34,133 nucleotides of DNA from a virus: the IMG/VR virus record IMGVR_UViG_3300042938_002066, positions 1-34,133 of that record. One strand, given 5' to 3'. Below the pieces are notes generated by a model. It worked only from the letters and a program-made list of their open reading frames with translations. It was not told the DNA's origin and searched no databases. Of the stretch, positions 2,720-34,133 are shown one piece after another (the stretch's first letter is position 1; each line of letters starts with the position of its first letter). A program made the translations under genes and the position numbers.

Positions 2720-4368
2720 CGATCACCGCCAACCTGGTCCGCGTGGACTATGCCGCCGATGGCAGCACCACCACCTTTCCCGTGCCGTTCATCTTCTACG
2801 GGGCCGACGAGCTCGTGGTGTACGAGCGCGCCAGTGGCGGCACCCTCACCGCCCTCTCCCGCGGCACGCATTACACCGTCACCGGCGGCAACGGCGCCAC
2901 CGGCACGGTAGTGGCCCTCAGCGCCCCGGCCTCGCCGTTGGTGTGGTCCGTGGTGAGAAACACCACCGCCACCCAGCAGGCGGCTTTCAACAACGCGGAT
3001 CCGCTGCCGGCACCCACCGTGGAACGCGCCTATGATCGCCTGACCGCCATGGTGCAGGAGCTGCAGGCCCAGATGGCCCGCGCCGTGCGCGTGTCACCGG
3101 GCGAGCAGGCGGAAGTGTCGCAGCTACCAATCCCCGCCACCCGCGCCAACCTAGCCCTCACCTTCGACGCGGCCGGCAACCCCACCGCCAGCACCCTGGC
3201 TACCGGCAGCGTGGCAGTGTCTGCTGCCATGCAGCCGGTGCTGAATGCCTCCACGCTGGCCGCCGGCCGCCTGATCCTGGGCAGCCGCCAGCATGTGGAT
3301 GCGGTGAAAGACTACGCCGCCGACAACACCGGCGCCGCCGATGCCAGCACCGCCATCCAGTCCGCCATCAACGGCCTCACCTCCGGCGTGGTCTATCTCC
3401 GCCCGGGCACCTACAAGGTAACCACCGACATCACGATGAAGCCAGGGGTGGCAATCGTGGCCGACAACCCACGGCTGGTGACGCTCACCGCCGCGGCCAA
3501 CAACGTGAAGATCCTGAAGTATGTGGCAGCCGCCACGCAAACCGGCTTCACCGTGCAGGGTGTCGGCTTCGCTGCCGGCGGCTACAGCGGCGTGCGCGCC
3601 ATCAGCCTGGACGGCACCGACAGCGCCAAGCGGCTGCTGCAAGTGAACATCGAGGACATCCTGATCACCGGCGGCGCCCGCGGCGTGGATCTAAAGTTCT
3701 GCGCCGACGACATCCTAGAGCGCGTGCGCACCAGCGGCACGATCGTCGGCATCTACCTGGACCAGTGCGCCAACACAGAGGTGGCCGGCGGCTATAGCAA
3801 CGGCGGCAGCGGCGCCGGCATAACCGTGGTGGGCGGCGCCGGCACCACCGACGAAGTGATGCGCATCCACGGCTACGCCACCAGGGACCAGGCGCAGGGC
3901 GTGGCAATCTCCGGCCAGGATTGGGGCCAGATCACCGGCTGCAGCTTTATCAACTGCAGCGGTGGCCCGCTGTCCTTCGTCTCGTCCAGCAACTGGCAGA
4001 TCAGCGGCTGCCAGCTCGTGACTGGCGGCGGCGCCCCGGCCACCCCGGGCGCCAGTGCCGACGCCCTCAGCAGCGGCTTGCAGTTCAACGCCAATGTGCT
4101 GACCAGCAACACCTTCGGGTTTAATTTGCTCGGCACCCAGCACGTGGTCACCGGCAACCGCCTAGCCAGCAACAGCAGCAACGACATCAACCTGCAGGCT
4201 ACAAAGTGCACCGTAGTGGGCAACGTGTGCGACAGCACCGGCACCGCCTACTCAATCACGGAACAAGTAGGAAGCGATTTCAACAACATCAGCGCCAACG
4301 CCACCAACGGCATCGTCTACATCGCGGGTGCCAACAGCGTCACCACCGGCAACAATCTGGTGTATTGA
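2716..4368 (+). CDS. Tailspike / tail fibre with T7-type N-terminal adaptor and beta-helix
   Basis: 550 aa. The ATG at 2716 overlaps the previous stop and has GGAGG 7 nt upstream. Residues 1 to about 130 match the T7 tail-fibre N-terminal (virion attachment) domain: 'VDYAADGSTTTFPVPF', a beta-rich stretch, then 'ERAYDRLTAMVQELQAQMAR'. From about residue 200, 'VKDYAADNTGAADASTAIQ' and 'GVVYLRPGTYKV' mark the start of a pectate-lyase-superfamily parallel beta-helix, which continues with Asn/Gly/Ser-rich rungs to the C-terminus. Such proteins bind host surface glycans and often depolymerise them; no catalytic residues can be named here. It is the last structural gene before the lysis genes. Confidence 0.85.
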   Translation: MTITANLVRVDYAADGSTTTFPVPFIFYGADELVVYERASGGTLTALSRGTHYTVTGGNGATGTVVALSAPASPLVWSVVRNTTATQQAAFNNADPLPAPTVERAYDRLTAMVQELQAQMARAVRVSPGEQAEVSQLPIPATRANLALTFDAAGNPTASTLATGSVAVSAAMQPVLNASTLAAGRLILGSRQHVDAVKDYAADNTGAADASTAIQSAINGLTSGVVYLRPGTYKVTTDITMKPGVAIVADNPRLVTLTAAANNVKILKYVAAATQTGFTVQGVGFAAGGYSGVRAISLDGTDSAKRLLQVNIEDILITGGARGVDLKFCADDILERVRTSGTIVGIYLDQCANTEVAGGYSNGGSGAGITVVGGAGTTDEVMRIHGYATRDQAQGVAISGQDWGQITGCSFINCSGGPLSFVSSSNWQISGCQLVTGGGAPATPGASADALSSGLQFNANVLTSNTFGFNLLGTQHVVTGNRLASNSSNDINLQATKCTVVGNVCDSTGTAYSITEQVGSDFNNISANATNGIVYIAGANSVTTGNNLVY

Positions 4369-5670: not shown

Positions 5671-6841
5671 TGCCGCCTTCCTTCTGCAGGCGCGCCGTGA
5701 AAGCTCGTTCGGCCTCGGCGCTGGTTCGGATCAGGTAGTGGCGATCCAGGATCGCCTGGACACTTTGGGCGGTGTGGCCGGTGATGCTGGCGATCGCAAG
5801 GGCATCGAGGCCGGCGGCTTTCAGGGCGGTGACGGCGGTGTGGCGAAGTTCCATCCAGCGAAGGGTGGTGCAGCTGGGCATGGCGGGGAGGTTCAGCTTG
5901 GTGTCGCCCTCGGCGGCCTTCTGGCGGATCTCGGCGAAGGTGTGCGTGAAGGTGAAGGGCTGCCAGGGGCGGCCGGTGCCTTCGTGGAGAAGCAGGTGCG
6001 TCAGGCTGGCCAGCTTGCTGGTGCGCTGGCGTTCCGCCTCCAGCCGCGCCACCAGCTCCGGCACCAGGTGCACTGGCAGGCTGACCTTGCGGCCGCGCTT
6101 GCGCTGGGTGAGCATGATGGCGCCCTGGGCGAGCTGGTAGGGGGCGAGGTTCAGGATGTCGGCTTGGCGCTGGCCGCACCAGAAGTTGAGGACCATGGCG
6201 GTGCCCTGGCTGTGCCAGCCCATCGCGTCGGCCGTGGCCACCAGGTGATCAAGCTGCAGGCGGGTCCATAGGACCGGCTCGCGCTGGCGTTCCACGCTGA
6301 TGCCGGCGCGCAAGGCGGGGTTGATCGGCACGAAACCCAGGCGCACGCCGGCGGACATCAGGGCGGAGAGCACGCGCACGGCGGCGGCGGCGCGGGCGGG
6401 TGTTTCGATGATGCGGCGCTGCCGCCCCTTGCCTTCGGTGCGGCGGGCCATGGCATCGTGGAAGGCCTGCACGGCGCGGGGCGTGATGGCGCGGGCGGGC
6501 TGGTCGCCGGCCCAGTCGGCGATCTTGTCCAGGTAGAGGCCGTAATCCTTGCGGGTGCGCGCGCCCTTGGGCCACCACTTGCTGGCCTTGTAAGCCGCAA
6601 TCATGGCCAGCACGCTGCCGGCCGGTGCCTTGGCGGCCTTGCCGGTGGGCAACTGGGCGCGCCTGGCATCGACCTCGGCGTTGAGCTCCTCGGCCACCTT
6701 CATCGCCTCGGCCTGGGTGCTGACCAGCAGGCGCTGCGGGTTCCAGCCGGCGGCGCGCAGCTTGGCGGAGGGCTGCCAATACCAGCGCGGGCCGTGCGCG
6801 CCGGGCTTCTCGACCAAGTGCCGTATGGTGTGGCGCGACAT
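5663..6841 (-). CDS. int: Tyrosine recombinase integrase
   Basis: 392 aa. The start at 6841 was chosen because a strong GAGGAGG lies just upstream. An N-terminal arm-binding and core-binding region (to about residue 180) precedes the catalytic domain. Visible active-site residues are Arg225 ('CGQRQADIL'), Lys248 ('QRKRGRK'), Arg333 ('ELRHT'), His356 ('ITGHT') and nucleophile Tyr369 ('DRHYL'). The first His of the usual HxxR motif is replaced by Met330, a tolerated variation. It catalyses site-specific integration and excision, here presumably at the tRNA-Thr-derived attP near 5057-5102. It is co-transcribed with the Xis-like gene upstream and the unknown gene downstream. Confidence 0.95.
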   Translation of the reverse strand: MSRHTIRHLVEKPGAHGPRWYWQPSAKLRAAGWNPQRLLVSTQAEAMKVAEELNAEVDARRAQLPTGKAAKAPAGSVLAMIAAYKASKWWPKGARTRKDYGLYLDKIADWAGDQPARAITPRAVQAFHDAMARRTEGKGRQRRIIETPARAAAAVRVLSALMSAGVRLGFVPINPALRAGISVERQREPVLWTRLQLDHLVATADAMGWHSQGTAMVLNFWCGQRQADILNLAPYQLAQGAIMLTQRKRGRKVSLPVHLVPELVARLEAERQRTSKLASLTHLLLHEGTGRPWQPFTFTHTFAEIRQKAAEGDTKLNLPAMPSCTTLRWMELRHTAVTALKAAGLDALAIASITGHTAQSVQAILDRHYLIRTSAEAERAFTARLQKEGGNG

Positions 6842-7737: not shown

Positions 7738-8025
7738 CAGAAACTGTATTCGTTCGGCACGCGCCGCTGCTTCCGCTTCGGCTTCGGCCTTCTCGTGCTG
7801 CAGCGCAGCGCCCCAGCGTTTCAGTAAGCTGCGACGGCCCCACCAACGAGCGGCAAACAACGCCATGGCTATGGCAAAGAAAAAGAAAGCTGCAAAGCGA
7901 TCACCGCCCAATAGCGCCAGCAACGTGGACAGCGCCAGAAAAGCCACCGCCATATAGTCTGGCGGCTGAATGTGGCGGTATCGCTCTAAATCTTCCTCTA
8001 GTTTGGCCGCTGGCTCATGGAACAT
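7723..8025 (-). CDS. Two-TM membrane protein linked to the repressor gene
   Basis: 100 aa. I chose the ATG at 8025, which overlaps the repressor stop as TGATG; a GTG lies one codon earlier. The N-terminal part is acidic ('AAKLEEDLERYRH'). Two hydrophobic segments (about 24-41, 'DYMAVAFLALSTLLALLGG', and about 44-60, 'FAAFFFFAIAMALFAARWW') are followed by a basic, then Ala/Glu-rich cytoplasmic helix. Because it is translated with the repressor it is probably made in the lysogen, which fits a superinfection-exclusion or immunity accessory protein. That role is inferred; no family is recognised. Confidence 0.7.
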   Translation of the reverse strand: MFHEPAAKLEEDLERYRHIQPPDYMAVAFLALSTLLALLGGDRFAAFFFFAIAMALFAARWWGRRSLLKRWGAALQHEKAEAEAEAAARAERIQFLRQES

Positions 8026-8459
8026 CACTGTTCCTGCTGCGGCGCATGCAGCGTTACACGCCGCCTGCGGGTGGGCACGCTGGCTACCGGCCGCTGTGCA
8101 GCAACCCCTGCGCGCCGTTCAACCTGCATCGGCGATTCCGGGGCCGGTCGACCTACCGTGGCGCCTAGATTGCCGGCGGCGCGCGCGAGCCGGTCCGCCA
8201 GGTCGTAATCGACGTGGCGCAGCTGGCCCAGGAAGATCCACTCCAGCGGGATGCCGAGCCAGGTAAAGAGCCGCACCATGGCGCGCACGTCGGGCAGACG
8301 CCCGGCCTCCCAGTTGGCCAGCGCGGTGCGGGTGATGCCAAGCTCGGCGGCGAACGTCTCCTGTTTGATGACGCCGCGCTCGTCCCACACCTCGCGCACC
8401 GCCCGAAGGCGCAGGCCGGCCATGCGGTCGATATCGGATGCGGGCGGCTTCTTCGGCAT
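8025..8459 (-). CDS. CI-like HTH repressor, no peptidase domain
   Basis: 144 aa from the ATG at 8459; a GTG further upstream at 8507 would run through the inverted repeat at 8468-8491 and is less likely. An XRE-type helix-turn-helix spans about residues 15-70: 'RLRAVREVWDERGVIKQETFAAELGITRTALANWEAGR', then 'PDVRAMVRLFTWLGIPLEWIFLG'. The C-terminal half is Arg/Pro-rich, with no LexA/S24 Ser-Lys protease signature, so RecA-stimulated self-cleavage is not expected. Divergent from a Cro-like gene, it is the probable lysogeny repressor. Induction must use another route, such as an antirepressor or partner. Confidence 0.8.
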   Translation of the reverse strand: MPKKPPASDIDRMAGLRLRAVREVWDERGVIKQETFAAELGITRTALANWEAGRLPDVRAMVRLFTWLGIPLEWIFLGQLRHVDYDLADRLARAAGNLGATVGRPAPESPMQVERRAGVAAQRPVASVPTRRRRVTLHAPQQEQ

Positions 8460-8467
8460 CTGTGGAA

Positions 8468-8491
8468 ACTTGACCGCCCCGGCAGTCAAGT
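8468..8491. promoter_or_regulatory. Inverted repeat between repressor and cro-like gene (candidate operator)
   Basis: Perfect 7-bp arms ACTTGAC and GTCAAGT with a 10-bp spacer, immediately upstream of the repressor start. A third TTGAC half-site lies at 8529-8533 just before the cro-like start. I could not identify a convincing -10 element in either direction. Confidence 0.45.
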
Positions 8492-8535
8492 CACGCCACC
8501 GCTGCACGGCTGTTTTGTGTCATGGGAGTTGACAT

Positions 8536-10132: not shown

Positions 10133-10449
10133 ACCGGGCCGTGACCCTTCAAGTTCGGCTGGATAGCGGCGAGACGATCGGCGTGGCGGCGCGGGCAGTG
10201 TTCGCGACCGATGGCGCGCTGATGCGGGTGATCCTGCCCATGGTACCGGCGCACGATCCGCGCGAGCGGGCGGCGCGGCGGCTGGTGGCGCGGATCGATG
10301 CCGAGCTGGCGCGGCCGGGCGCGCCCGGCGCCGAGGTGATCCGGCGCGAGGCCGAGCTGGTGGCGGACCTGGCGGAGCAGCTGGTGAACCTGGAAGCGCA
10401 GCACGGGCTCGCGATGGTGCGCACGGCCGCGCTGGAGGCGGGCCAATGA
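10129..10449 (+). CDS. Unknown small protein upstream of the primase-like gene
   Basis: 106 aa, with ATGA overlaps at both ends. The N-terminal 40 residues are beta-rich ('VTLQVRLDSGETIGVAARAVF', 'ALMRVILPMV'), and the rest is a long amphipathic, probably coiled-coil region ('RERAARRLVARIDAELAR', 'IRREAELVADLAEQLVNLEAQ'). No family is recognised. Operon position suggests a replication-associated role. Confidence 0.6.
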   Translation: MNRAVTLQVRLDSGETIGVAARAVFATDGALMRVILPMVPAHDPRERAARRLVARIDAELARPGAPGAEVIRREAELVADLAEQLVNLEAQHGLAMVRTAALEAGQ

Positions 10450-11564
10450 GCCTGATTTCGATTGACCAGGTGGCGGCCCTGCTGGCCGGGCGCATCGATG
10501 CGTTGGCGCCGGAGCTGCTGGCCGGTGGCAAGCGCGAGGGGCGCGAGTGGCGCGCGGGATCGCTGGCTGGTGAGGCCGGGCAATCGCTGGGCGTGCACCT
10601 GACCGGGGCCAAGGCTGGCGTGTGGTGCGATTTCGCCAGCGGCGAGACGGGCGACGCGCTCGACCTGGTGGCCCAGGTGCTGTTCCGCGGCGACAAGAGC
10701 GAGGCGCTGAAGTGGTCTCGCCGCTGGCTGGGGCTGGAAGATGGCGACCCGGCGGCGATGGCCACGGCGCGCCGGCAGGCCGAGCAGCGCCGCGCGGTGG
10801 CCGACAAGCAGGCCGCCGAGGATGAGGAACGCCGCCGCCGTGGCGCGCTGGCGATGTGGCTGGAGGCGCGGCCGATCGAGGGCACGCCGGCCGAGGCCTA
10901 TCTGCGCGGGCGCGGCATCGACCTGCGCGCCCTCGGCCATGTGCCGGCGGCGCTGCGGTTTCACCCTGCGCTATATTGCCGCGAGGCCGACATGAAGCTG
11001 CCAGCGATGGTAGCGGCGATCGGCGCGCCGAATGGCCGGCACGTGGCCACGCACCGCACGTTCCTGGCACCGGTGGCCGGCAGCTGGGCCTCGCCGTTGC
11101 CGCCGCACCAGGCCGGGCAATGGGGCAAGGCCAAACTACGCGAGGCCAAGCTGACCTATGGCACCTATGCCGGCGGGTTCATCCGCCTGACGCGCGGGGC
11201 CAGTCAACGGGCATGGCGCGAGATGCGCGGCGACGAGACGGTGGCGTTTGCCGAGGGCATCGAAACCGCGCTGTCCGTGGCAGTGCTGGTGCCGGAATGG
11301 CGGGTGGCAGCCAGCGTTTCGCTCTCAAACCTCAAGCGCGTTCAGCTGCCGCCGACGGTGCGCCGCCTGGTGGTGTGCGCGGACCGCGACCCGCCCGACA
11401 GCCGCGCCACCGAGGCGCTGGCCCAGGCGCTGCGCGCGCTGCAGGCGCAGGGGGCCGAGGTGTTCGTGGTGCGGCCGGATCATCCGCATAAGGATTGGAA
11501 CGACCAACTGCAGGCCGAGCTGGCGGATCAGATGACGACCGGCGCGCGCGAGGCTTCGGCATGA
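10446..11564 (+). CDS. Toprim-domain primase-like replication protein
   Basis: 372 aa. The N-terminal part has the phage primase pattern 'GVWCDFASGETGDALDLVAQVLF', which follows a CHC2-type zinc-finger fold but lacks the cysteine/histidine ligands. A charged linker (about 105-140) and 'AEAYLRGRGIDLRALGHVPAALRFHP' precede a Toprim domain. The Toprim acidic residues are Glu270 ('FAEGIETAL') and Asp313/Asp315 ('VVCADRDPP'), with a late 'KDWND' motif. It probably makes or supports RNA primers together with the ATPase at 12466, from which a minus-strand cassette now separates it. Its stop abuts the stop of the convergent HTH gene at TGATCA. Confidence 0.85.
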   Translation: MSLISIDQVAALLAGRIDALAPELLAGGKREGREWRAGSLAGEAGQSLGVHLTGAKAGVWCDFASGETGDALDLVAQVLFRGDKSEALKWSRRWLGLEDGDPAAMATARRQAEQRRAVADKQAAEDEERRRRGALAMWLEARPIEGTPAEAYLRGRGIDLRALGHVPAALRFHPALYCREADMKLPAMVAAIGAPNGRHVATHRTFLAPVAGSWASPLPPHQAGQWGKAKLREAKLTYGTYAGGFIRLTRGASQRAWREMRGDETVAFAEGIETALSVAVLVPEWRVAASVSLSNLKRVQLPPTVRRLVVCADRDPPDSRATEALAQALRALQAQGAEVFVVRPDHPHKDWNDQLQAELADQMTTGAREASA

Positions 11565-11776: not shown

Positions 11777-12358
11777 TCACGCCCCCACGCAGTGGGTGCG
11801 GCAGGCGGCGCGGTATACCTCCCGCTCCATGTCAAAGCCACGGGTCACGGCGGCATCGTACGTGACCGTGCGGATGCTGGCGCCGAAGCTGCCTTCCTGG
11901 ACTTCGACCGCTTCGACCGGGTAGCCCTTGGCGGCCAAGCGAGCGACGGCGCGGCGCAGCAGATCGGCGGACATGTCGCGCTTGGTGAAGACGAAATCGG
12001 CGCCGAAGCTGACCAGCTTGGCCTCGGGGTGCGGCATCCATTCGCGCACGGCCGAGATCACGCCGGTGCTGCCGTCGGTGCCGGGATGGCTGGCAATGGT
12101 GGCGGTGCCATCCGGCAGCAGCCAGCTGGTGAAGTGCACCTTCATGTCGATCATGCCGTCGAAATCACCGCGGCGGAACTGCTGCACGATGGGATCGACC
12201 GCAGCGGCGGCGGGGCCGTCGGCCCAGCCCACATCGATGGAGGCGCCGCCGCTGTAGCGGTGGCTGCGCACGCTGAACTTGGTGCGGGGAAAAGCGCGCT
12301 TGAGGGCGGCGCGGATCAGCTTGGCGGTTTCGGCGGTGCTGAGGTAGGTGGTTTTCAT
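11777..12358 (-). CDS. LPD29-like (large polyvalent protein-associated domain 29) protein
   Basis: 193 aa; GGGAG lies 8-9 nt upstream of the ATG. The N-terminal half matches the LPD29 pattern as I know it: 'YLSTAETAKLIRAALKRAFP', 'TKFSVRSHRYSGGASIDVGWADGP', then 'FDGMIDMKVHF'. The C-terminal half ('LVSFGADFVFTKRDMSADLLRRAVARLAAKGY') looks like a second small domain. LPD29 domains were described in multidomain polyvalent proteins of phages and conjugative elements involved in inter-element conflict. The molecular role is unknown. It is transcribed against its surroundings, together with an HTH gene, which suggests a self-contained accessory cassette. Confidence 0.7.
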   Translation of the reverse strand: MKTTYLSTAETAKLIRAALKRAFPRTKFSVRSHRYSGGASIDVGWADGPAAAAVDPIVQQFRRGDFDGMIDMKVHFTSWLLPDGTATIASHPGTDGSTGVISAVREWMPHPEAKLVSFGADFVFTKRDMSADLLRRAVARLAAKGYPVEAVEVQEGSFGASIRTVTYDAAVTRGFDMEREVYRAACRTHCVGA

Positions 12359-12385
12359 CGGTCGGTCTCCCTTGCTGGTGGAGAC

Positions 12386-12448
12386 ATGATGCGCAAAATG
12401 CGCATCATTGAGAAGCGCCAACCGTACATGTCTGATGCGCGATTTGAG
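12386..12448. promoter_or_regulatory. Perfect 23-bp palindrome plus degenerate second site between divergent genes
   Basis: Arms ATGATGCGCA (12386-12395) and its exact reverse complement (12399-12408) flank AAA. A second TGATGCGC with a degenerate partner lies at 12433-12448. A rightward promoter is plausible: TTGAGA (12408-12413), 17 bp, TCTGAT (12431-12436). A weaker leftward one is TTCTCA, 17 bp, CATCAT on the minus strand (12414 to 12386). Both would be covered by the palindromes, as expected for a two-way operator. Confidence 0.6.
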
Positions 12449-12465
12449 CATACCGAGAGCCGGGC

Positions 12466-14223
12466 ATGAGCGACACCGGCGGAAAATCCCGTGCGCGGGA
12501 AAAGCTGTTGAACGCGCGGCCGGTGAAGGCCTCGGCGGAGCAGCTCGAAGATGTGGCCAAGCCGCTGCCCGATGGGTGCCCGGTGCATCCGCTGGGCATG
12601 CAGAGCGGGGAAACACCAACGGCGGTGTATCTCTCCGCCTCCGGCATCATCAGCAAGCTGGCCGGGCAGGCACATGGGCTGGGCAACCTTGAGGGGTTGT
12701 TTGCGCCGCAAAATAAGTTCCTGTGGGAGCACTGGCCGCGGCGGACGCAGGACGGCGCCACGGTAAACGGTTTCAAGGCCGAGCTGGTGCGGTCCGACCT
12801 GTTCGCCGCCGCCGGCCGCCTGGGCATTTGGGACGAGCTGGAGCGCGTGCGCGGCCCGGGCGCCTGGCGCGGGGCCGGTGGCGAGCTGATCCTGCACCTG
12901 GGTGACCGGGTGATGATGGACGGCGAGCTGCACCCGTGGGGCGTGCTCGATGGCATGGTCTATCCCGCCGGGCCCACGATGCTGGGCCCTGCCCCCCGCA
13001 CCCTGAAAGGGGCGAACCCCACGCAGCCCGGGCAGCAGGTGCTGGCGCTGCTGCAGACCTGGAACTGGCGCCACCCGACCATTGCGCCCCGGCTGATGCT
13101 GGGGTGGATTTGCGCCGCCATGGTCGGCGGCGCGCTGAAATGGCGCCCGGCGGTGTGGCCGACCGGCGACCGCGGCACGGGCAAGAGCACCTTGCTGGAT
13201 GCCTGCAAGGCGCTGCTCGGCCCGAACGCGGCGGTGCAGACCGCCAACACCACGGCCGCCGGCATCCGCCAGGCGGTGATGGCGCGCTCCGTGCCGGTGC
13301 TGCTCGACGAGCTCGAAAGCAGCGACGATGGCGGCGACGTGGTGCAGAAGGTGATCGAGCTGCTGCGGCAGGCATCCTCTGGCTCCATCGGGTTGCGCGG
13401 CGGGGCCGACCACAAGGGGCAGGTGTTCCAGATCCGCAGCGCGATGCTGGCCACCTCCATCATGGTGCCGCCGCTGCGCTCCCAGGATCGCAGCCGGATC
13501 GCGGTGCTCGATCTTCGGCCGCTGGACAGTTCCAAACCCCCGCCCGATGTGCGCGCGGATCGGCTGCACGCCCTCGGCCAGCAGTTGCTGCGGCGCATGG
13601 TGGACAACTGGCCGCAGCTGGATGGCCGGCTGGCCACGTGGCGGGCGCAGCTGGAGGCGCATGCCGGCATGGATGCGCGCGGGGCCGACCAATACGGCAC
13701 GCTGCTGGCCTGCGCGGACCTGGTGCTGAGTGATTTGCCGCCCGATGGCGAGCTGCTGGCGGAGGTGGTGGGCGAAGGCCTGACCAAGATGCTGGGCGAG
13801 CTGCGCGCCGATGATGTGCAGGACTGGCGCCGGGCGATCGACCACATGTTGACCGCGCCGGCGGAGGCCTATCGCGGTGGCGATCGGTTGACGCTGGGCG
13901 AGCTGGTGGGCCGCGCGGCTGGGCATGTGCCGGGCATCGATCCCGATGACGCCAACAAGGCTCTGGCCAGTGCCGGGCTGCGGGTGGTGGTGCAGTCTGG
14001 CGTGTGGTGGCTGGCGGTGGCGAACCAGCACCAGCACCTCAGCCGCGTGTATCAGGGCACCATCTGGGCGGGGCGGAGCGGCACCAGCGGCGGGTGGCGG
14101 CAAGTGATGCTGCGGGCACCGGGTGCGCTGGTACCGCCCAATGCGCTGCGCTTCGGGGCTGGTGTGAGCCAGCGCGTGGTGATGCTGCCGCTGCTGGTGG
14201 CGCTGAACCAGGAGGGGCCGTGA
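12466..14223 (+). CDS. P-loop replicative ATPase / helicase-like protein
   Basis: 585 aa. A Walker A motif is at residues 234-242 ('GDRGTGKST') and a Walker B at about 278-282 ('VLLDE'). Downstream 'MLATSIMVPPL' and 'QDRSRIAVLDL' fit sensor and arginine-finger positions of primase-helicase proteins of the D5/VapE/DUF927-like type. The N-terminal 200 residues have the 'YLSASGIISKLAGQAHG' opening seen in phage replication ATPases; the C-terminal part (from about 430) is a probable winged-helix region. It presumably unwinds the origin and works with the Toprim protein at 10446. The iteron-like array lies immediately downstream. Confidence 0.85.
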   Translation: MSDTGGKSRAREKLLNARPVKASAEQLEDVAKPLPDGCPVHPLGMQSGETPTAVYLSASGIISKLAGQAHGLGNLEGLFAPQNKFLWEHWPRRTQDGATVNGFKAELVRSDLFAAAGRLGIWDELERVRGPGAWRGAGGELILHLGDRVMMDGELHPWGVLDGMVYPAGPTMLGPAPRTLKGANPTQPGQQVLALLQTWNWRHPTIAPRLMLGWICAAMVGGALKWRPAVWPTGDRGTGKSTLLDACKALLGPNAAVQTANTTAAGIRQAVMARSVPVLLDELESSDDGGDVVQKVIELLRQASSGSIGLRGGADHKGQVFQIRSAMLATSIMVPPLRSQDRSRIAVLDLRPLDSSKPPPDVRADRLHALGQQLLRRMVDNWPQLDGRLATWRAQLEAHAGMDARGADQYGTLLACADLVLSDLPPDGELLAEVVGEGLTKMLGELRADDVQDWRRAIDHMLTAPAEAYRGGDRLTLGELVGRAAGHVPGIDPDDANKALASAGLRVVVQSGVWWLAVANQHQHLSRVYQGTIWAGRSGTSGGWRQVMLRAPGALVPPNALRFGAGVSQRVVMLPLLVALNQEGP

Positions 14224-14600
14224 TGTTGGCCCTGTTCCGCCGCGCCCTTCCGCTGTACACCACCCTTGCCCGCACCCCGGCCCGCCTGCCGCAAGCAATG
14301 GATAGCGCGCGGCTTGGGTGGGGGGGTGTGACAGGGTGTGACGCTGGCCACGGCGCTGTCACACCCATTGTCACACCTAGGCGGTTGATATCGCGTGGCA
14401 ATGGGCGGGGGTGTGACGATGTGACGCTCCGCAGCCTCGCATATGCGCATACACGCGCGGGTGCGTCTGGGTCTCTCTTCTCTGTCACATCGTCACAGGT
14501 AAAGAAAAGGATAGATGCAGACAGGGGAAACCCTGTGACGGTGGGTGTGACAGAGGGTGTGACGGGAGGCGCGGGCGTCACACCCCGCGGAAACCGTTGA
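14223..14600 (+). CDS. Short ORF containing the TGTGAC repeat array (probably translated, function unknown)
   Basis: 125 aa. The ATG overlaps the ATPase stop (TGATG) with GGAGG 7 nt upstream, and its stop overlaps the next start (TTGA), so translation is plausible. The protein has no recognisable domain: a basic N-terminus, then a low-complexity stretch with repeated Gly-Val-Thr and Val-Thr-Pro produced by the DNA repeats. The repeats occur in both orientations and more than one reading frame, so selection seems to act on DNA and not on protein. The ORF may be a passenger reading through a replication origin. Confidence 0.4.
   Translation: MLALFRRALPLYTTLARTPARLPQAMDSARLGWGGVTGCDAGHGAVTPIVTPRRLISRGNGRGCDDVTLRSLAYAHTRAGASGSLFSVTSSQVKKRIDADRGNPVTVGVTEGVTGGAGVTPRGNR
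14327..14582. repeat. Array of twelve TGTGAC/GTCACA repeats (candidate replication origin iterons)
   Basis: Forward TGTGAC copies start at 14327, 14337, 14412, 14420, 14534, 14546 and 14558. Reverse GTCACA copies start at 14358, 14370, 14484, 14492 and 14577. About 0.1 copies would be expected by chance in 256 bp. Most extend to GGGTGTGACR. Within clusters, start-to-start spacing is 8, 10 or 12 bp. The 14-mer TGTGACGATGTGAC at 14412-14425 is exactly inverted at 14484-14497. An array next to a replicative ATPase gene fits an iteron origin; function is inferred. Confidence 0.7.
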
Positions 14601-15325
14601 ATACCGTCCTGCAGGAGATGGCGGAGGATCGCGTGGCGGAGGCGTTCCCGCTGCAGCACGAACTGCTCGGCCTGCCGGAGTTGGCGCCGGGCAGCAAGGG
14701 CGCGGCGGCGATCGAGGCCCGGCGGAGCAAGGGCGGCCGTCCGCTGGGGGCGCGCAACAAGCGCATCGAGGACGTGGCGCGGGCGGTGGTGGAGCACCTG
14801 GGGGATCCGCTGGTGCACTTGGTGGCGATTGCCACGGCGGGCGTGGACGAGCTGATGGCGATCGGGCTGAAGCCGTCCGAGGCGTTCGCGGAGAAGCGCC
14901 TGGCGGCCACGGCGGCGCTGCCCTATCTGCACCAGCGGCAGGCCGTGCGGGTGGACGTGAGCTCGCACCAGGTGGTGCATCTGAGCATCACGGATGGGGT
15001 GGCGCTGGCCTCGCAAAATCAAGGGGTTATCGACGCGATAGCGGTGCAGTTGGACAGCGGCGAGTTGGACAGCGACGGCAACCCGTTGAACCTGCTGGCC
15101 TTCGCGCCCACCGAGCAACTGATTGCGGATCAGGCGGGCGAGGCCACGGCGCCCACCCCCCCGCCCCCCGCGCCCGTGCCCGCCCACCCCCCCACCCCCC
15201 CCGGGGGGGGCGGTTTCGCGCCCGCGCCGCTGTCTCGTGCCCCTGCCAGCGTGGTTTCCCCCTCGTCCCGAATTTTTCGCGGATCCACCAAGCCCGCCAC
15301 CCAGGGCTGGGGGGATGAGGCATGA
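14597..15325 (+). CDS. Small terminase subunit-like DNA-packaging protein
   Basis: 242 aa from a TTG at 14597 that overlaps the previous stop; the next in-frame ATG (14618) has a ribosome site too close to use, so TTG is preferred but unsure. The motif 'RSKGGRPLGARNKR' near residues 43-56 is a basic, AT-hook-like DNA-binding stretch common at the start of phage small terminases. It is followed by a helical domain ('VARAVVEHLGDPLVHLVAIATAGVDEL', 'PSEAFAEKRLAATAALPYLHQ'). The C-terminal 50 residues are Pro/Gly-rich and encoded by long C and G runs. Its stop overlaps the large-terminase start, which supports the assignment. Confidence 0.7.
   Translation: MNTVLQEMAEDRVAEAFPLQHELLGLPELAPGSKGAAAIEARRSKGGRPLGARNKRIEDVARAVVEHLGDPLVHLVAIATAGVDELMAIGLKPSEAFAEKRLAATAALPYLHQRQAVRVDVSSHQVVHLSITDGVALASQNQGVIDAIAVQLDSGELDSDGNPLNLLAFAPTEQLIADQAGEATAPTPPPPAPVPAHPPTPPGGGGFAPAPLSRAPASVVSPSSRIFRGSTKPATQGWGDEA
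15195..15210. repeat. C8G8 homopolymer palindrome in the small-terminase 3' end
   Basis: Eight C residues (15195-15202) are followed directly by eight G residues (15203-15210), inside a 60-bp tract of C runs. This is a place where sequencing error or polymerase slippage is likely. The reading frame stays open to the ATGA overlap with the large terminase gene, so the length shown is plausible. Confidence 0.8.
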
Positions 15326-28587: not shown

Positions 28588-31559
28588 TGAGCTACACCAG
28601 CCAGAACCCCTACGGCGGCCCGGTGAACATGCCGGAGCAGCGCGGGCCAGACATCAACAGCGCCGGCCTGCCCGCGCGCCAGCTCGCCCAGGGCCTGGCT
28701 GAAGTCTCCGGCCAATGGGCCGGCTTTTGGGCGCAGGCGCAACAGGCCCAGAACGTCGCCACCGCCAGCAAGCATTCCGCCGATGCCCAGATGGAACTGG
28801 GCGACATGATCCGCGGCTTCGACAGCGACCCAGACCCCGCCGGCGCCGCCGAACGCTTCAAGCAGCGCGCCGCGGAATGGCGCACCAAGAAGCTGGAGGG
28901 GCTGGACCCCGGCGTGCAGCGCGTGCTCGACGGCCAGCTGCAGCGCCTGGTGCCCGCCGCCTACAACCAGGTGGCCGGCCGCGCCGCCGAGCGCACCCGC
29001 ACCAACCTGCGCGCGGGTTTCACCGATACGCTGGGCACGTTCGCCCAGGGCCTCGCCGCCGCGCCGGACGAGCCCACCACGCAGGCGCAGCTGCAAGGCA
29101 TCAAGGCCCACATCTCCGGCAACGTGGCCGCGGGCATCATCCCCCAGGCGGATGCCACCCAATACTTCAGCCGCGCCGTGGCCCAGGCCATTACCATCAA
29201 ATCCGCCACCGACCCCATCGCCGCCCAGCAGATGCTGGAACAGCACAAGGCGGAGATGGACGCCGGCACAGTCGCCACCCTCACCACCAGCCTGCGCGCC
29301 CCGGTGGAGCGGCGCCAGGACGAGAACGACGTGCAGCAGCGCATCACCCTGAGCCAGGACGTGCGCACCCGCGCCGATGCCGTGGTGCAGGGCCTGGTGG
29401 CACGCAACATCCCGCTGCACGTGGCGCAAGGCCTCGCCGCGAACGCCATCCAAGAAAGCGGCGCCAACCCCGCCACCCGCCCCGGCGACGGCGGCGCCAG
29501 CGACGGCCTGTTCCAGTGGCGCGACAGCCGGCGGCAGGCTTTCAAGGCGCAATACGGCATCGACCCCAGCCAGGCTACGTTGGACCAGCAGCTCGACTTC
29601 ACCGTGGCCGAGCTGCAGGGCAGTGAGAAGCGCGCGGGCGATGCCCTGCTGGCCACCCGCACGCCGGAGGATGCCGCCCGCGTCGCCAGCACCGCCTACC
29701 TGCGCCCGCGCGACACGGCCGTGGAGGAACGCCGCCGCGCCGGCTACGCCACCGCCCTGGCCGGCGGCAGCCCGCGCCAGATGGTGCTTGACCAGGTGCG
29801 CCAGGATAGCGCCGATATGCCCCTCGGCCGCCGGTTGCACCGGGAGGCGCTGGTGGAACAATGGTTCAACCGGCTGGATGCGCAGCAAGGCCAGCAACGC
29901 GCCGCGCTGGGCAGCGAGCTGCGCGACCTCTCCGCCACCTACCTCGCCGGCAACACCACCCCCGCCATCCCGGAAAACCGCATCCGCGAGCTGCACCCGG
30001 CCGATAGCCAGCGCATCATCGACAGCCTCAACATCACCCGCACCGCGGGCGATGCGTTGAAAGCCTCTGCCTTCGCCAGCCCCGCCGACCAAACCTCGAT
30101 GCGCGCGCAACTCGCCGGCAACCCCGCCGACACGTACTTGGCCGCCGAGCGCCAGCAGGCCGTGGGGCACTACGACCAGGGCCTGACCCGCATCCGCACC
30201 GCCATCAAGGACGACCCCGGCGGCTATGCCGGCACCGCGCCGGAAGTGCAGGAATTGGTGCGCGCCGGCGCCACCGCGCCGCAGATCATGGCCGCCAGCA
30301 TCGGCGTGCAGCAGCGCATGGGCGTGCTGCCTTCCGCCCGCCGCCTGCTGACCAACGACCAGGCCACCGTGATGGCGGAACTGCTGCGCACCACCCCGCC
30401 GGAAAAGGCCGACATGGCCGCCACGCTGGGCAGGCTTGCGCAGGATTTCGGCGCGGGCGATGCCGACCCCGCCCGCCGCGCCACCGGCGCCGCCCTGTTC
30501 AATGCCGCGCTGGGCGAGCTGGTGAAGCACCAGAAAATCGGCTGGGAATGGATTGCCTTCGCCGGCATGGACCGCCCGGAACAGGCGCAGGGCCGCGCCA
30601 TGCTGCAGCAAGCCCTCGTGTTCGAAGCCGCGCGCGGCGGGCCGGAAGCCGTGGTGAAGCTGCTGCCGCAAGACCAGGCCAAGGCCCTGCCCGGCGAGCT
30701 CGACAGCGCATTGACCGACCTGCGCACCGTCACCAGCCACCACCCAGGCGGCATGGCGCTGTTCGACAACAGCCGCCGCAGCATCGAGACCATCGCCCGC
30801 ATGCGCGTGATGAAGGGCGAGAGCGCCAGCCAGGCCGCCAAGAACGCCTACAACGACGTGATCGGCCACAAATGGGAGCCGGCCGGCGACGACGGCAGCG
30901 GCTGGATGTTCGATACCCACACCATGCTGGTGCCCAAGGGTCAGGCCGGCGCCATCGAAACCTCCCTGGCCACGGTGCGCGGCGGCATCAAGCCCAGCGA
31001 CATCATGCCTCTGCCGGACCCGATGCGCCGCACTGCCAGCGAGGCCGAGCTGCGCGACGCCACCGCCAGCGCCGCCCGCCGCGGCTTCTGGATCAACAAC
31101 GCAGACGGCAGCGGCGCCGTGCTGGTGGGCCGCTCCACCGGCGGCGCCATCATCAACATCATGCGCGCCGATGGCCGCCCGATCGAGGTGCTGTTCGAAC
31201 ACCTGCCGAAACCCGGCCAGCCCGCCATCGCCCTGCCGGCCGCCACCACCGACCAGCCGGGCACCGCGCCCGCACCGACCCCGCCCGAAGCCCGCCGCGC
31301 CCGCTTCCTGGACCTGATGAGCCGGCCCAGCTTCGACCCTTACACGGCGCTATCCAACGTCATGGCCGACGCGCTGTTCCCCAACGCCCTGCCGCCCGGC
31401 GTGCGCCAAGACAGCCCGATGCCCGCCAGCACCGTGCCCGCCGCTCAGCCCGCGCCCCAGCAATTACCCGTCTGGCGCGGCCTGCCCAGCTGGAGCCAGC
31501 GCGCCGCCGAACGCTACGGCCGCCCGCGCCAGGGCACGCCGATGGAAGGTGACCGATGA
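28587..31559 (+). CDS. Internal virion (gp15-like) protein with lysozyme-like domain
   Basis: 990 aa. The start at 28587 (TGATG overlap) is used because upstream in-frame codons lie within the gp14-like gene. Residues 1-260 are helical. Residues about 265-390 form a phage-tail-lysozyme-like domain: 'HVAQGLAANAIQESGANPATRPG', then 'GLFQWRDSRRQAFKAQYG', 'TLDQQLDFTVAELQGSEKRA', 'TPEDAARVASTAYLRPRD'. Glu290 in 'AIQES' is the likely catalytic acid. The remaining 600 residues are helical, followed by a small beta region and a Pro-rich tail. It is probably ejected and cuts peptidoglycan locally so that the ejection channel can cross the periplasm. The next gene overlaps it by ATGA. Confidence 0.85.
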   Translation: MSYTSQNPYGGPVNMPEQRGPDINSAGLPARQLAQGLAEVSGQWAGFWAQAQQAQNVATASKHSADAQMELGDMIRGFDSDPDPAGAAERFKQRAAEWRTKKLEGLDPGVQRVLDGQLQRLVPAAYNQVAGRAAERTRTNLRAGFTDTLGTFAQGLAAAPDEPTTQAQLQGIKAHISGNVAAGIIPQADATQYFSRAVAQAITIKSATDPIAAQQMLEQHKAEMDAGTVATLTTSLRAPVERRQDENDVQQRITLSQDVRTRADAVVQGLVARNIPLHVAQGLAANAIQESGANPATRPGDGGASDGLFQWRDSRRQAFKAQYGIDPSQATLDQQLDFTVAELQGSEKRAGDALLATRTPEDAARVASTAYLRPRDTAVEERRRAGYATALAGGSPRQMVLDQVRQDSADMPLGRRLHREALVEQWFNRLDAQQGQQRAALGSELRDLSATYLAGNTTPAIPENRIRELHPADSQRIIDSLNITRTAGDALKASAFASPADQTSMRAQLAGNPADTYLAAERQQAVGHYDQGLTRIRTAIKDDPGGYAGTAPEVQELVRAGATAPQIMAASIGVQQRMGVLPSARRLLTNDQATVMAELLRTTPPEKADMAATLGRLAQDFGAGDADPARRATGAALFNAALGELVKHQKIGWEWIAFAGMDRPEQAQGRAMLQQALVFEAARGGPEAVVKLLPQDQAKALPGELDSALTDLRTVTSHHPGGMALFDNSRRSIETIARMRVMKGESASQAAKNAYNDVIGHKWEPAGDDGSGWMFDTHTMLVPKGQAGAIETSLATVRGGIKPSDIMPLPDPMRRTASEAELRDATASAARRGFWINNADGSGAVLVGRSTGGAIINIMRADGRPIEVLFEHLPKPGQPAIALPAATTDQPGTAPAPTPPEARRARFLDLMSRPSFDPYTALSNVMADALFPNALPPGVRQDSPMPASTVPAAQPAPQQLPVWRGLPSWSQRAAERYGRPRQGTPMEGDR

Positions 31560-33910
31560 GCGGCTTCACCGGCCTTTATTTTGGCGACCCCGCCGCCCCC
31601 GCCGCCGTGCAGGCGCAGGGCCTGTCTGCCGTGCAGGCCTCCACTGGGGAAGTGCTGGCCGCCACCGCCGGCAGCGCATGGGCCAACAGCCTCGGCCCGC
31701 GCCTGTTCGATTGGGGCGGGCGCCAGTTCGCCCCCTCCGGCCGCACGCTGGACGCCACCGAGGCCAACGCCAGCTACAGCGTGCCCGGCCTCACCTTCGA
31801 CCGCCCGGTGGCGGAAGGCGTGGCCCAGGCCCTGCGCGACGGGCGGGAGGCGGAGAACCGCCGCCAGGCCATCATCGCCCGCCGCAGCGACAGCCTCGCC
31901 ACCAGCGCCGTGGGCCGCGGTGTCGTCACCTTTGCCACGGCCATGCTGGATCCCGTGAACATCGGTGCCGCGCTGATCCCCTTCGTGGGGGAGGCGCGCA
32001 TGATGCAACTGCTGGGCACCACCAGCGTGGCCGCCGTGCGCGCCGCCACCGGTGCCGCCAACGGCGCGCTGGGCATGGCGGTGCTGGAGCCGCTGGAATG
32101 GGGCCTGTCCCGTTCGGAATTCAACGACCGCCACATGAGCGAGACGCTGGCCAATGTCGCCTTCGGTGGCGTGCTGGGCGCCGGCCTCCATGTGCTAGGC
32201 GGTGCCGCCGTGGATTGGAAGCGCGGCAGCGGCCCGGCCTGGGCGCCCAAGCCCAACCCCACCCCGGTGGAACGCGCCATCTCCGAAGCCGCCCCGCAGG
32301 CGCGCGAGCTGATGCTGCGCGGCGCCGTCGCCGCCGTGGCCGAAGGCCGGCCGGTGGAAGTGGGCGCGGTGATGAACCTGCCCACCGCCACCACCTACCG
32401 CGAGGTGGCCGGCGAGGCCCGCCAGGGCGCCTACGCCGCCTACACCCCCGGCGGCCTGCGCATCGAGGCGCGGCCGGAGGTGGTGGACCTGTCCGCCCTG
32501 GTGCCCAGCCACATGGCCGACGGCACTGTCAACGCCGCCTATCCACATGCCGAGGGATTGCAGCCGCGTGACCGAAGCACCGCAGGAAGCCAGGACCAAA
32601 TCGGAACCATCGCCGCCAACCTTCAGCCGGAGCGCCTCGGCCCGTCGCCCGAGGCTGGTGCTGGCGCCCCTCTTGTGGACGCGCGCGGGGTGGTGGAAAG
32701 CGGCAATGGCCGAGTGGCAGCACTCGATCGGGTCTATTCCAACCCGGAGCTGGCGCACCGCGCCCAAGCCTACCGCGCCTATCTGGAGGCCCAAGGCTAT
32801 GACCTCACCGGGATCGAACGCCCGGTGCTGGTCGGCCGGCGCGTGTCGGACCTGTCGCCCCAGGAAGCCGCCGCGTTCGCCAAGGGCGCCAACGAACGCC
32901 CGAACCTCAGCATGACCGCAGCCGAGCAGGCCCGCGCCGATGCCGACCGCGCCGGCCGCGCCGTGGACCAGCTGCAACCAGGCGCGCTCACCAGCAGCCA
33001 GAACCGGGACTTCACCCGCGCCTTCCTGGCCATGCTGCCGGCGGAGGAACGCGGCAGCTTGGTGCTGGCCGATGGGCGCCTGTCGGCCGCCGGAGAGCTG
33101 CGCATGCGCCAGGCGATCCTCGCCCACTCCTTCGGCGACAGCCTCGGCCCGCTGCTGGAAAAGCTGCTGAACGGCGAGGCCGACAACCTGAAGGGCATTG
33201 CCGGCGCCCTGGCCGATACCGCCGGCCCGTGGGGCCGCATGCGCGCCGCCGCCGCGCGCGGCGAGATCCCCGCCGACCTGGACATTACCGCCGCCCTCGG
33301 CGAGGCCGTGCAGCTGGTGGAAAAGGCCCGCAGCAGCGGCAAGACCATCGCCGAGCTGCTGGCCCAGGCCGATGCCTTCACCGCCCCGCCCGGCCCCGCC
33401 ACGCTGGCCCTGCTGCGCCTGATGCACCGCGACGAAACCCTTGCCCGCACCCTCGGCCGCGAGCCCATGGCGGAGCTGCTGACCCGCTACGCCGACGAGG
33501 CAATGAAGGTGCAGCCGGGCCCCGATTTGTTCGGCACCCCGCCCGCCAGCCCCGCCGATTTGCTGCGCGCCGCCGCCCGCCACGTGGACCCCGCCGCCGC
33601 CACCGCCCAGGCCCTGGACGACCTCGCCCGCGCCCCCCGCGCCGCGCCGGAGGACGTGCTGGCCAGCCGCGAGGCCGCGCGCATGGCCAACGCACAGCCG
33701 CCAGTAGTCAAGCAATCCTTGACCGCTGCCGACCCCGAGCTGGCCGCCATCACCGCCGACGCGGACCGCATCACCCAACAGCTGGAAACCCTGCCCTTGG
33801 CGCCAGACGAAGCGGCCACGCTGACCCGCCTGCGCGAAGGCGTGCAGCTCGCCGAAACCGAAGCCCGCGCCACCGAGGCCGCGGCCCTGTGCATGGTGGG
33901 TGTCCGATGA
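31556..33910 (+). CDS. Internal virion (gp16-like) protein with DdrB-type ParB-like domain
   Basis: 784 aa. The N-terminal region has Gly/Ala-rich segments that could act as membrane-inserting helices ('VGRGVVTFATAMLDPVNIGAALIPFVGEA', 'NVAFGGVLGAGLHVLGGAAV'). Residues about 343-462 match the DdrB-like ParB domain of polyvalent proteins: 'DQIGTIAANLQPERLGPSPEA', 'VDARGVVESGNGRVAALDRVY', 'YRAYLEAQGYDL', 'RPVLVGRRVSDL', 'NLSMTAAEQARADADRAG'. The rest is helical with an Ala-rich tail. Such proteins are packaged and enter the cell with the genome; P1 DdrB is linked to protection from restriction. An anti-restriction role here is inference. The end overlaps the DUF5675 start. Confidence 0.8.
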   Translation: MSGFTGLYFGDPAAPAAVQAQGLSAVQASTGEVLAATAGSAWANSLGPRLFDWGGRQFAPSGRTLDATEANASYSVPGLTFDRPVAEGVAQALRDGREAENRRQAIIARRSDSLATSAVGRGVVTFATAMLDPVNIGAALIPFVGEARMMQLLGTTSVAAVRAATGAANGALGMAVLEPLEWGLSRSEFNDRHMSETLANVAFGGVLGAGLHVLGGAAVDWKRGSGPAWAPKPNPTPVERAISEAAPQARELMLRGAVAAVAEGRPVEVGAVMNLPTATTYREVAGEARQGAYAAYTPGGLRIEARPEVVDLSALVPSHMADGTVNAAYPHAEGLQPRDRSTAGSQDQIGTIAANLQPERLGPSPEAGAGAPLVDARGVVESGNGRVAALDRVYSNPELAHRAQAYRAYLEAQGYDLTGIERPVLVGRRVSDLSPQEAAAFAKGANERPNLSMTAAEQARADADRAGRAVDQLQPGALTSSQNRDFTRAFLAMLPAEERGSLVLADGRLSAAGELRMRQAILAHSFGDSLGPLLEKLLNGEADNLKGIAGALADTAGPWGRMRAAAARGEIPADLDITAALGEAVQLVEKARSSGKTIAELLAQADAFTAPPGPATLALLRLMHRDETLARTLGREPMAELLTRYADEAMKVQPGPDLFGTPPASPADLLRAAARHVDPAAATAQALDDLARAPRAAPEDVLASREAARMANAQPPVVKQSLTAADPELAAITADADRITQQLETLPLAPDEAATLTRLREGVQLAETEARATEAAALCMVGVR

Positions 33911-34133
33911 AACTGCTTTTGCAGCGCAGAGCCTCGGCAAACGGCTGCACGCTGGGCCAGCTCGGCATCAACGGCACTCACCAATGCTACACGCTGGAGG
34001 ACGTGGTGCGCTCCGGGCCTAAAATTGCGGGCCAGACGGCGATCCCGGCCGGCACCTACGCCGTGCGACTTACCTGGTCCCCGCGCTTCGGCCGCATCCT
34101 GCCGCTGATTGAGGCCGTGCCGGGCTTTGAAGG
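33907..34133 (+). CDS. DUF5675 family protein, N-terminal part (continues at 3-326)
   Basis: This is the 5' part of a gene interrupted by the window end. Joined across the circle (33907-34006 plus 1-326) it encodes 141 aa. The ATG overlaps the stop of the preceding ejection-protein gene (ATGA), so translation is probably coupled. The N-terminal part reads MKLLLQRRASANGCTLGQLG and continues into a 'CYTLED' segment and 'IPAGTY', which fit the DUF5675 pattern known from phages. The role is not established. The position within the virion and lysis genes and the lack of another endolysin make a peptidoglycan-related role possible. That part is inference. Confidence 0.8.
   Translation, partial: MKLLLQRRASANGCTLGQLGINGTHQCYTLEDVVRSGPKIAGQTAIPAGTYAVRLTWSPRFGRILPLIEAVPGFE
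34007..34133. repeat. Terminal direct repeat, right copy (circular overlap)
   Basis: Exact copy of 1-127. It should be trimmed before coordinates are used for a circular map. Confidence 0.95.

Follow-up and report, generated by a model that had tools for sequence, protein, structure and literature searches.

A dyad-symmetric array of TGTGAC repeats behind an ATPase gene is a probable replication origin in a tailed phage

What is the function of a dense cluster of TGTGAC hexamers lying directly behind an ATPase gene? The cluster is found in IMG/VR record IMGVR_UViG_3300042938_002066, and the whole record of 34,133 bases is the window analyzed here. A preliminary description, made from the letters of the window, had read the cluster as an origin of replication with a dedicated initiator binding site. 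The window has a 127-bp direct terminal repeat, at 1-127 and 34007-34133, so the record is probably a complete genome. Its source is a tailed phage, and family matches identify downstream structural genes for a phage capsid protein, a head-tail connector, and tail and internal virion proteins.

The window contains 14 copies of TGTGAC on both strands, and 12 of them fall within 14327-14582, seven forward and five reverse, exactly as first counted. The segment 14223-14600 was shuffled 2000 times with dinucleotides preserved, and the shuffles held a mean of 0.37 copies and a maximum of 3, so the excess over chance reported before is confirmed. When the whole window was shuffled (n = 100), no hexamer had more than 9 copies in any 256-bp stretch, compared with the 12 observed. 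A chance cluster is thus ruled out by both sets of shuffles. The array begins 104 bp past the last base of the ATPase gene, which bears out its placement directly behind that gene. With > and < for forward and reverse copies, the order, measured from start to start, is >10>21<12<42>8>64<8<42>12>12>19<. The center is a perfect 14-bp inverted repeat with arms at 14412-14425 and 14484-14497 and 58 bp between them, as the preliminary description had it, and the nearest flank copy is 42 bp from the core pair on both sides. The strict core detector described below gives a single match in the whole window, at 14412-14497. The parts of the array are as follows.

14327-14582, no strand: dyad-symmetric iteron array of twelve TGTGAC copies (counts and shuffles; the layout recurs with other words in relatives)
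14327-14375, no strand: left flank cluster of four copies, two in each orientation (copy order)
14412-14497, no strand: core, two forward copies 8 bp apart, a 58-bp loop, and two reverse copies 8 bp apart
14426-14483, no strand: core loop, candidate unwinding element (22-base alternating purine-pyrimidine run)
14534-14582, no strand: right flank cluster of four copies, three forward at 12-bp spacing and one reverse (copy order)

The genes that bear on the array are listed next.

8025-8507, minus strand: HTH repressor-like protein (Pfam)
10446-11564, plus strand: DUF7146/Toprim primase (Pfam/PHROG)
11777-12619, minus strand: open frame with an LPD29 domain (Pfam, E 1.4e-20)
12466-14223, plus strand: ATPase of 585 aa, candidate self-loading initiator helicase (Pfam AAA_29, PHROG primase families)
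13891-14220, plus strand: aa 476-585 of the ATPase, candidate reader of the iterons (residues 562 and 570 vary with the motif)
14223-14600, plus strand: stop-free frame of 125 aa that spans the array (its start overlaps the ATPase stop in TGATG)
14597-15325, plus strand: next open frame after the array (matched in neither Pfam nor PHROG)
31556-33910, plus strand: 784-aa frame with a ddrB-like ParB-superfamily domain (Pfam, E 1.1e-29)

The Toprim primase likely belongs to the same replication module as the ATPase and the array. The frame with the LPD29 domain lies between the primase and ATPase genes and runs in the reverse direction to the replication genes, and the frame with the ddrB-like domain lies close to the end of the structural gene block. 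An integrase gene is encoded on the minus strand, as is the repressor-like protein (Pfam/PHROG). Cumulative GC skew turns at 5684, in the integrase region, and at 15143 (the maximum), just past the array. The GC-skew check proposed earlier therefore does find a turn near the array, but the polarity of the turns is the reverse of the usual origin rule. Because the turn is near the border of the replication and structural genes, it was left out of the evidence.

Relatives of the ATPase were collected at 143 loci, made up of 9 of 23 named phage records, the best 80 of 496 IMG/VR stretches, and 54 loci from bacterial genomes. The IMG/VR stretches were obtained with the ATPase alignment as the query (599 stretches, 496 confirmed, best 80 used); a search for related loci with the ATPase sequence alone found none. 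A detector blind to the motif was then applied. In its strict form, it asks for any hexamer twice at 7-10 bp, then 36-115 nt, then the reverse complement twice at 7-10 bp, and in its relaxed form one mismatch is allowed if at least three further copies are near. A core was detected in 88 of the 143 loci, a sample which includes those best 80 of 496 IMG/VR stretches, while 459 shuffled sequences, three from each of 153 sequences (more than the 143 ATPase loci), gave one strict and four relaxed matches. L073 and L092 are weak matches, with one and zero extra copies, respectively. The detector found no core in the other 55 loci, including all 14 loci from cyanobacterial genome records. For the named phages, cores were detected in L010, L015, L016, L017, and L018, a further array is visible by eye in L014, and neither the detector nor the eye finds an array in L011-L013.

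The layout of the window array recurs in these loci. The core lies within 1 kb behind the matched ATPase gene in 66 of 88, and the other 22 arrays are 1-5.5 kb from it on either side. Seventy-five arrays were curated, namely, the window and 74 of the 88 core loci, with 14 near-duplicate or unclear loci excluded (L015, L033, L036, L043, L046, L050, L057, L072, L073, L077, L087, L092, L107, and L111). The geometry was calculated for the 62 of the 75 that meet the placing rule. The core pairs are mostly spaced at 8-9 bp. The next copy outward is at 40-45 bp on the left in 41/62 and on the right in 43/62, and it has the opposite orientation in 56/62 and 61/62, respectively. The spacing that follows is 11-13 bp in 90 of 122 cases. 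The earlier description knew of no account of the motif; we found no earlier account of this layout in tailed phages in the open-access literature, but the architecture itself is precedented by PICI and P4 origins.

The exact TGTGAC core was also sought in IMG/VR, giving eight stretches. As these were chosen by the core pattern, their core is there by selection. In 7 of the 8, extra TGTGAC copies are present beyond the core. Some of the stretches are AT-rich (GC 0.38-0.42) and some GC-rich (0.64-0.65), and L003 and L006 encode D5_N/DUF5906 ATPases. The odd one among the eight is L002, where inverted TGTGAC pairs at 3262-3345 lie between genes for a ParB-like protein and an AAA_25 ATPase, with five copies in the region shown and without flank clusters; it may be a different kind of site. 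At loci of D5/DUF5906 helicases, the core was detected in 26/80, compared with 0/80 after one shuffle each; one of this set, L155, is on the same contig as L006, which had already been found by pattern. The open frame at 15322 as the query returned two loci, L235, on the contig of L019, and L236.

Is the repeated DNA or the encoded protein under selection? The preliminary description stated that the copies fall in different frames of an otherwise featureless ORF. They do occupy more than one phase, but only two of the three phases counted from 14223 are used; a forward TGTGAC copy in the third phase would create an in-frame TGA. The amino acids appear unconstrained, but the frame is not wholly without features, since the forward frame is stop-free across the array in 32/62 arrays, compared with 10/62 for the other strand and 12% of shuffled segments. 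Forty-eight arrays follow the ATPase stop codon within 900 bp. In 29 of these, the core is read through by a frame with a possible start close to the stop codon, and in 25 the stop codon overlaps an ATG. One idea is that the open frame keeps ribosomes on the message and so avoids Rho termination. The substitutions between relatives number 423, 449, and 445 at the three codon positions (14 pairs, not all independent). This even distribution shows that the ORF protein is not the conserved thing, and coding selection as the cause of the repeats is rejected. Together with the geometry kept in relatives, it agrees with the earlier view that selection is on the DNA. Thus, judged by comparison of sequences, the array DNA seems to be under selection and the ORF protein does not. 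The alignment of relatives proposed at the outset, comparing motif and spacing with the protein, shows that the spacing persists, the protein does not, and the word of the motif changes.

No fewer than 44 distinct 7-mers serve as words in the 75 curated arrays; over positions 2-6 alone, there are 23 distinct 5-mers. There are 52 different strings, 13 of them with an undefined position, and 44 is the conservative count. The words fit a loose frame, with mostly G at position 2, A or C at position 5, and mostly C at position 6. Each motif was aligned manually to its A/C-C positions ahead of the residue tests, and this choice of frame could have introduced bias. The signal at positions 1 and 7 is frequently weak. 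For the 61 arrays with a fully defined word, 45 word changes are placed on the tree of the ATPase core. The copies of one array change together between lineages. The nearest relative with a passing core among the matches listed, L019, is 66% identical over the ATPase core and has ten copies of GCTACG in the layout <19<55>8>63<8<45>11>11>18<. In L236, at 2985-3240, CTGTAATG is found in 4/5 of the left-hand copies and CTGAAATG in 4/4 of the right-hand copies. The closest ATPase in the bacterial genome collection, in L099, a Rhodospirillales metagenome bin, has 64% identity, and this locus has no passing core but scattered copies of mixed words in a degenerate array at 3030-3440. L236 and L099 may be arrays in transition between words.

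If the ATPase reads the repeats, then its reading domain should change with the repeats. For 72 nonredundant arrays, motif similarity is correlated with identity in aa 476-585 when the rest of the protein is controlled, with a partial r of 0.19, and none of 500 permutations gave a value as high. The converse correlation, with the rest of the protein when aa 476-585 is controlled, is -0.10. Region 121-220 shows a weak signal as well, with 21 of 500 permutations as high. The permutations shuffle the motifs irrespective of kinship, and pairs taken from the tree are the guard against this.

The clearest single association is with residue 562. In the 75 arrays, Tyr or Trp at this residue occurs with C at position 2 in 11/11 and Arg or Lys in 0/53 (Fisher 1.3e-12), and the one remaining array with C at position 2 has Gln. 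On a tree of aa 34-475, which omits the C-terminal domain, C at position 2 involves six changes. In five independent pairs on supported branches, residue 562 changes in the same direction in 4.9 of 5 cases on average and in the other direction in 0.0; with only five pairs, the sign test has a floor of 0.0625. Residue 570 is associated with the end of the word. With the GGTTC group left out, Lys at this residue is found with C at position 7 in 7/8 arrays and Arg in 4/39, and Thr is found only in the group with T at position 6 (10/10). Of nine independent changes at position 7, residue 570 goes along in about four and is unchanged in about five.

A mutual-information scan without the GGTTC group (59 arrays) places residue 562 and position 2 as the top pair, with residues 413, 324, and 134 close behind. 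In the full set (71 arrays), residue 134 with position 5 is first and residue 562 with position 2 is sixth, and the top pairs lie outside the C-terminal domain. The top 100 column pairs are not enriched in the C-terminal domain in either scan, with 16 (71 arrays) and 19 (59 arrays) found and 19.0 expected in each. Since the column ranking is not enriched for the domain, the link between word and domain rests on the domain-level test and the two residues.

What kind of protein is this ATPase? AAA_29 is its sole Pfam match at E up to 0.01, and the DUF927 model does not match. Searched as a profile against PDB sequences, the ATPase has 50 matches at E 10 or below. The strongest, at E 0.0002, is to a phosphate-loop protein, and the matches inspected cover the P-loop region. 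The AlphaFold model has a pLDDT of 92.8 and a pTM of 0.88. The top VIA-align row for this model is Cch of SCCmec (5dgk), with Z 16.7, an rmsd of 6.2, and 413 residues aligned over residues 32-577 of 585. The MCM homologue 3f8t (Z 16.4) and the SaPI5 primase-helicase 7ola (Z 16.2) are tied with it and reach no further than residue 450. A Cch-like fold thus extends over nearly the full length of the ATPase model; sharing a fold does not by itself prove membership. The C-terminal domain modeled alone (aa 468-585) has a pLDDT of 91.9, and its top rows are the DNA-binding domains of HSF1, TcpK-type, and vIRF-1 proteins, a weak resemblance to winged-helix domains, with Z of at most 3.1; Foldseek gave no match for this domain at E up to 0.001. 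Residue 562 of the ATPase model is in the strand 561-563, and residue 570 is between the strands 567-569 and 571-575. These residues might be placed as in a reading wing.

The loop of the window core contains an alternating purine-pyrimidine run of 22 bases, and the fraction of control windows with an equal run is 0.000; the controls, mostly coding DNA, were same-length windows every 25 bp and more than 400 bp away. The loop is 36% AT (locus 31%), and its stacking energy is ordinary for the record, with a fraction of 0.186 as weak or weaker. The same is seen in GC-rich relatives, where the longest alternating run of the loop, up to 51 bases, is in the top 5% of its locus in 54 of 56 arrays, and the loop is among the weakest 5% by stacking energy in 2 of 56. 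AT-richness as the defining feature of the loop is rejected on this last count. The loop is one of the weakest in four of the six loci below 60% GC, and in five of the six its alternating run is in the top 5%. From these data, the AT-rich element of PICI origins seems to be replaced by the alternating tract in GC-rich phages. Alternating purine-pyrimidine tracts favor Z-DNA, and a Z-DNA-prone tract may act in the origin here.

We suggest, with a probability of roughly 0.8, that the array is the replication origin of the phage, of the PICI/P4 type, and that the MCM-like ATPase encoded upstream binds the iterons by its C-terminal domain and loads as rings. The comparison of relatives supports the original proposal of an origin with a dedicated initiator site well. 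Of the two initiator candidates then named, the ATPase encoded at 12466 and the 9497 product, the evidence favors the ATPase, in which the C-terminal domain varies together with the motif; no Pfam or PHROG family matched the 9497 product. In the proposed mechanism, the array would serve as the origin, and the AAA+ ATPase would bind the TGTGAC iterons via a domain at about aa 476-585. Given the dyad layout, two rings would face each other across the central tract, head to head. After opening of this tract, the rings would load on single strands and two forks would leave, with priming by the Toprim primase of the same gene block. Binding, double-ring loading, loop opening, and origin activity are the steps that we infer. 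A wider proposal, tentative and on balance doubtful, is that a large group of tailed phages shares one blueprint of constant geometry, in which the word and the reading wing of the helicase would switch in concert. Residue 562 would read position 2 and residue 570 positions 6-7, giving each lineage an origin of its own that is incompatible with the others, and GC-rich origins would open by means of a Z-DNA-prone tract that stores or releases supercoiling.

Could the array have another function at this position in the genome? It might be a packaging start site (pac or cos) read by a small terminase subunit. A large-terminase gene does follow the core by 1.1 kb in L004 and by 2.4 kb in L005, and the two frames after the window array sit where terminase genes are expected. 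The product of the first, at 14597-15325, could at a guess be the small subunit, from position alone, and the frame at 15322 has the expected place of the large one; neither matches a Pfam or PHROG family. However, the array has no terminase gene as its neighbor in three annotated phages: it is upstream of a primase-like gene in L017, followed by hypothetical genes in L018, and three genes before the terminase in L016. The 22 of 88 arrays located 1-5.5 kb from the ATPase gene on either side, the covariation of the motif with the ATPase C-terminal domain, and the annotation of a similar layout in P4 as ori and crr also speak against packaging, which we consider improbable. An operator array, through which a phage regulator would control the following genes, is very improbable. 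The array does separate the replication genes from the structural genes, regulators typically bind dyad sites, and the window encodes the HTH repressor-like protein, but an operator would not be expected to have twelve sites spaced at 8/42/12 bp about a long loop or to covary with a helicase domain, and the L076 array is flanked by convergent open frames (mechanically called).

The inverted copies might instead act by pairing, either in a transcript or by extrusion from the DNA as a cruciform. Folding of 14320-14590 gives a z of -6.15, with 0/200 shuffles as stable, and the core is a perfect 14-bp inverted repeat. Good folding is to be expected of any set of inverted copies, though, and pairing has no need of direct-repeat spacings or of the 40-45 bp offset. 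A search of 14000-14900 gave no Rfam match at E up to 1. We therefore attach very little probability to a structured RNA or cruciform as the function of the array, and a cruciform may be part of origin opening. Hardly more credible is a parS-like site for partition or plasmid maintenance. It is brought to mind by L002, one of the eight exact-pattern matches, which adjoins a ParB-like gene, and by the ddrB-like ParB-superfamily domain encoded in the window. However, L002 is atypical in its copy number and missing flank clusters, the gene for the ddrB-like domain lies in the virion region at a distance of 17 kb, the ATPase is the protein with which the motif covaries, and the integrase gene of the window suggests maintenance by integration.

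If the array is a replication origin, as we prefer, its occurrence at both ATPase loci (88/143) and D5/DUF5906 loci (26/80) would tie satellites and phages into one self-loading replicon family. The link between the motif and the residues offers a candidate recognition code that can be tested directly, and the alternating tract raises the question of how a GC-rich origin opens without an AT-rich element. The motif-blind detector is a simple means of proposing phage origins.

How does the array compare with known origins? Lambda ori is similar in being a phage origin of repeats read by a phage initiator. Its iterons are four same-strand repeats inside O, and the detector found no dyad core in lambda 37500-40500. 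Lambda O is not known to be a helicase.

PMC6092414 describes PICI origins as sets of iterons on both sides of a presumed AT-rich melting region, 3' of rep, and a cloned rep-ori segment of one Escherichia coli PICI as functional. According to PMC7581432, SaPI Rep reads the origin, just downstream of its gene, via its C-terminal domain, and binding of the initiator as two hexamers has been suggested (PMC6092414, PMC7581432). The window array is similar in having its iterons in two sets that flank a central region and in lying directly 3' of a helicase gene, whose product would be the initiator. The candidate reading domain of the window ATPase, identified by covariation, is C-terminal as in SaPI Rep. 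The differences are that the center is not AT-rich, with an alternating purine-pyrimidine loop in GC-rich loci, that the array is in a full phage of 34 kb with virion genes and not in a satellite, and that the helicase matches no DUF927 model. As the array is not in a satellite and its center is not AT-rich, we have not classed it as a PICI origin. The 8/40-45/11-13 bp geometry is described here for the phage arrays, and word switching linked to residues is a further difference from PICI and SaPI origins. PMC7581432 relates Cch to Rep, the initiator of SaPIbov1. Cch (5dgk), a DUF927 protein, has 12% sequence identity to the window ATPase, and the 5dgk chain is not among the sequence-profile matches of this ATPase in the PDB sequences.

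P4 has a similar spacing. The type 1 repeats of P4 ori have the order >10>11>22<43>10>, which resembles the first half of the window array, >10>21<12<42>8>, and crr is just 3' of the alpha gene. The two P4 stretches compared are L153:4291-4590 and L153:9310-9413. The P4 word GGTGAACA fits the motif frame of the phage arrays. The strict detector finds no core in P4 and the relaxed detector does. The alpha protein is a fused primase-helicase, according to PMC7145576. Unlike in the window, the P4 sites are in two places about 4.7 kb apart, and by analogy the contiguous phage array may be what P4 carries split in two. On our best reading, what is new relative to PICI and P4 origins is the occurrence in tailed phages, the strict geometry, the concerted switching of the word, and the alternating loop in GC-rich phages.
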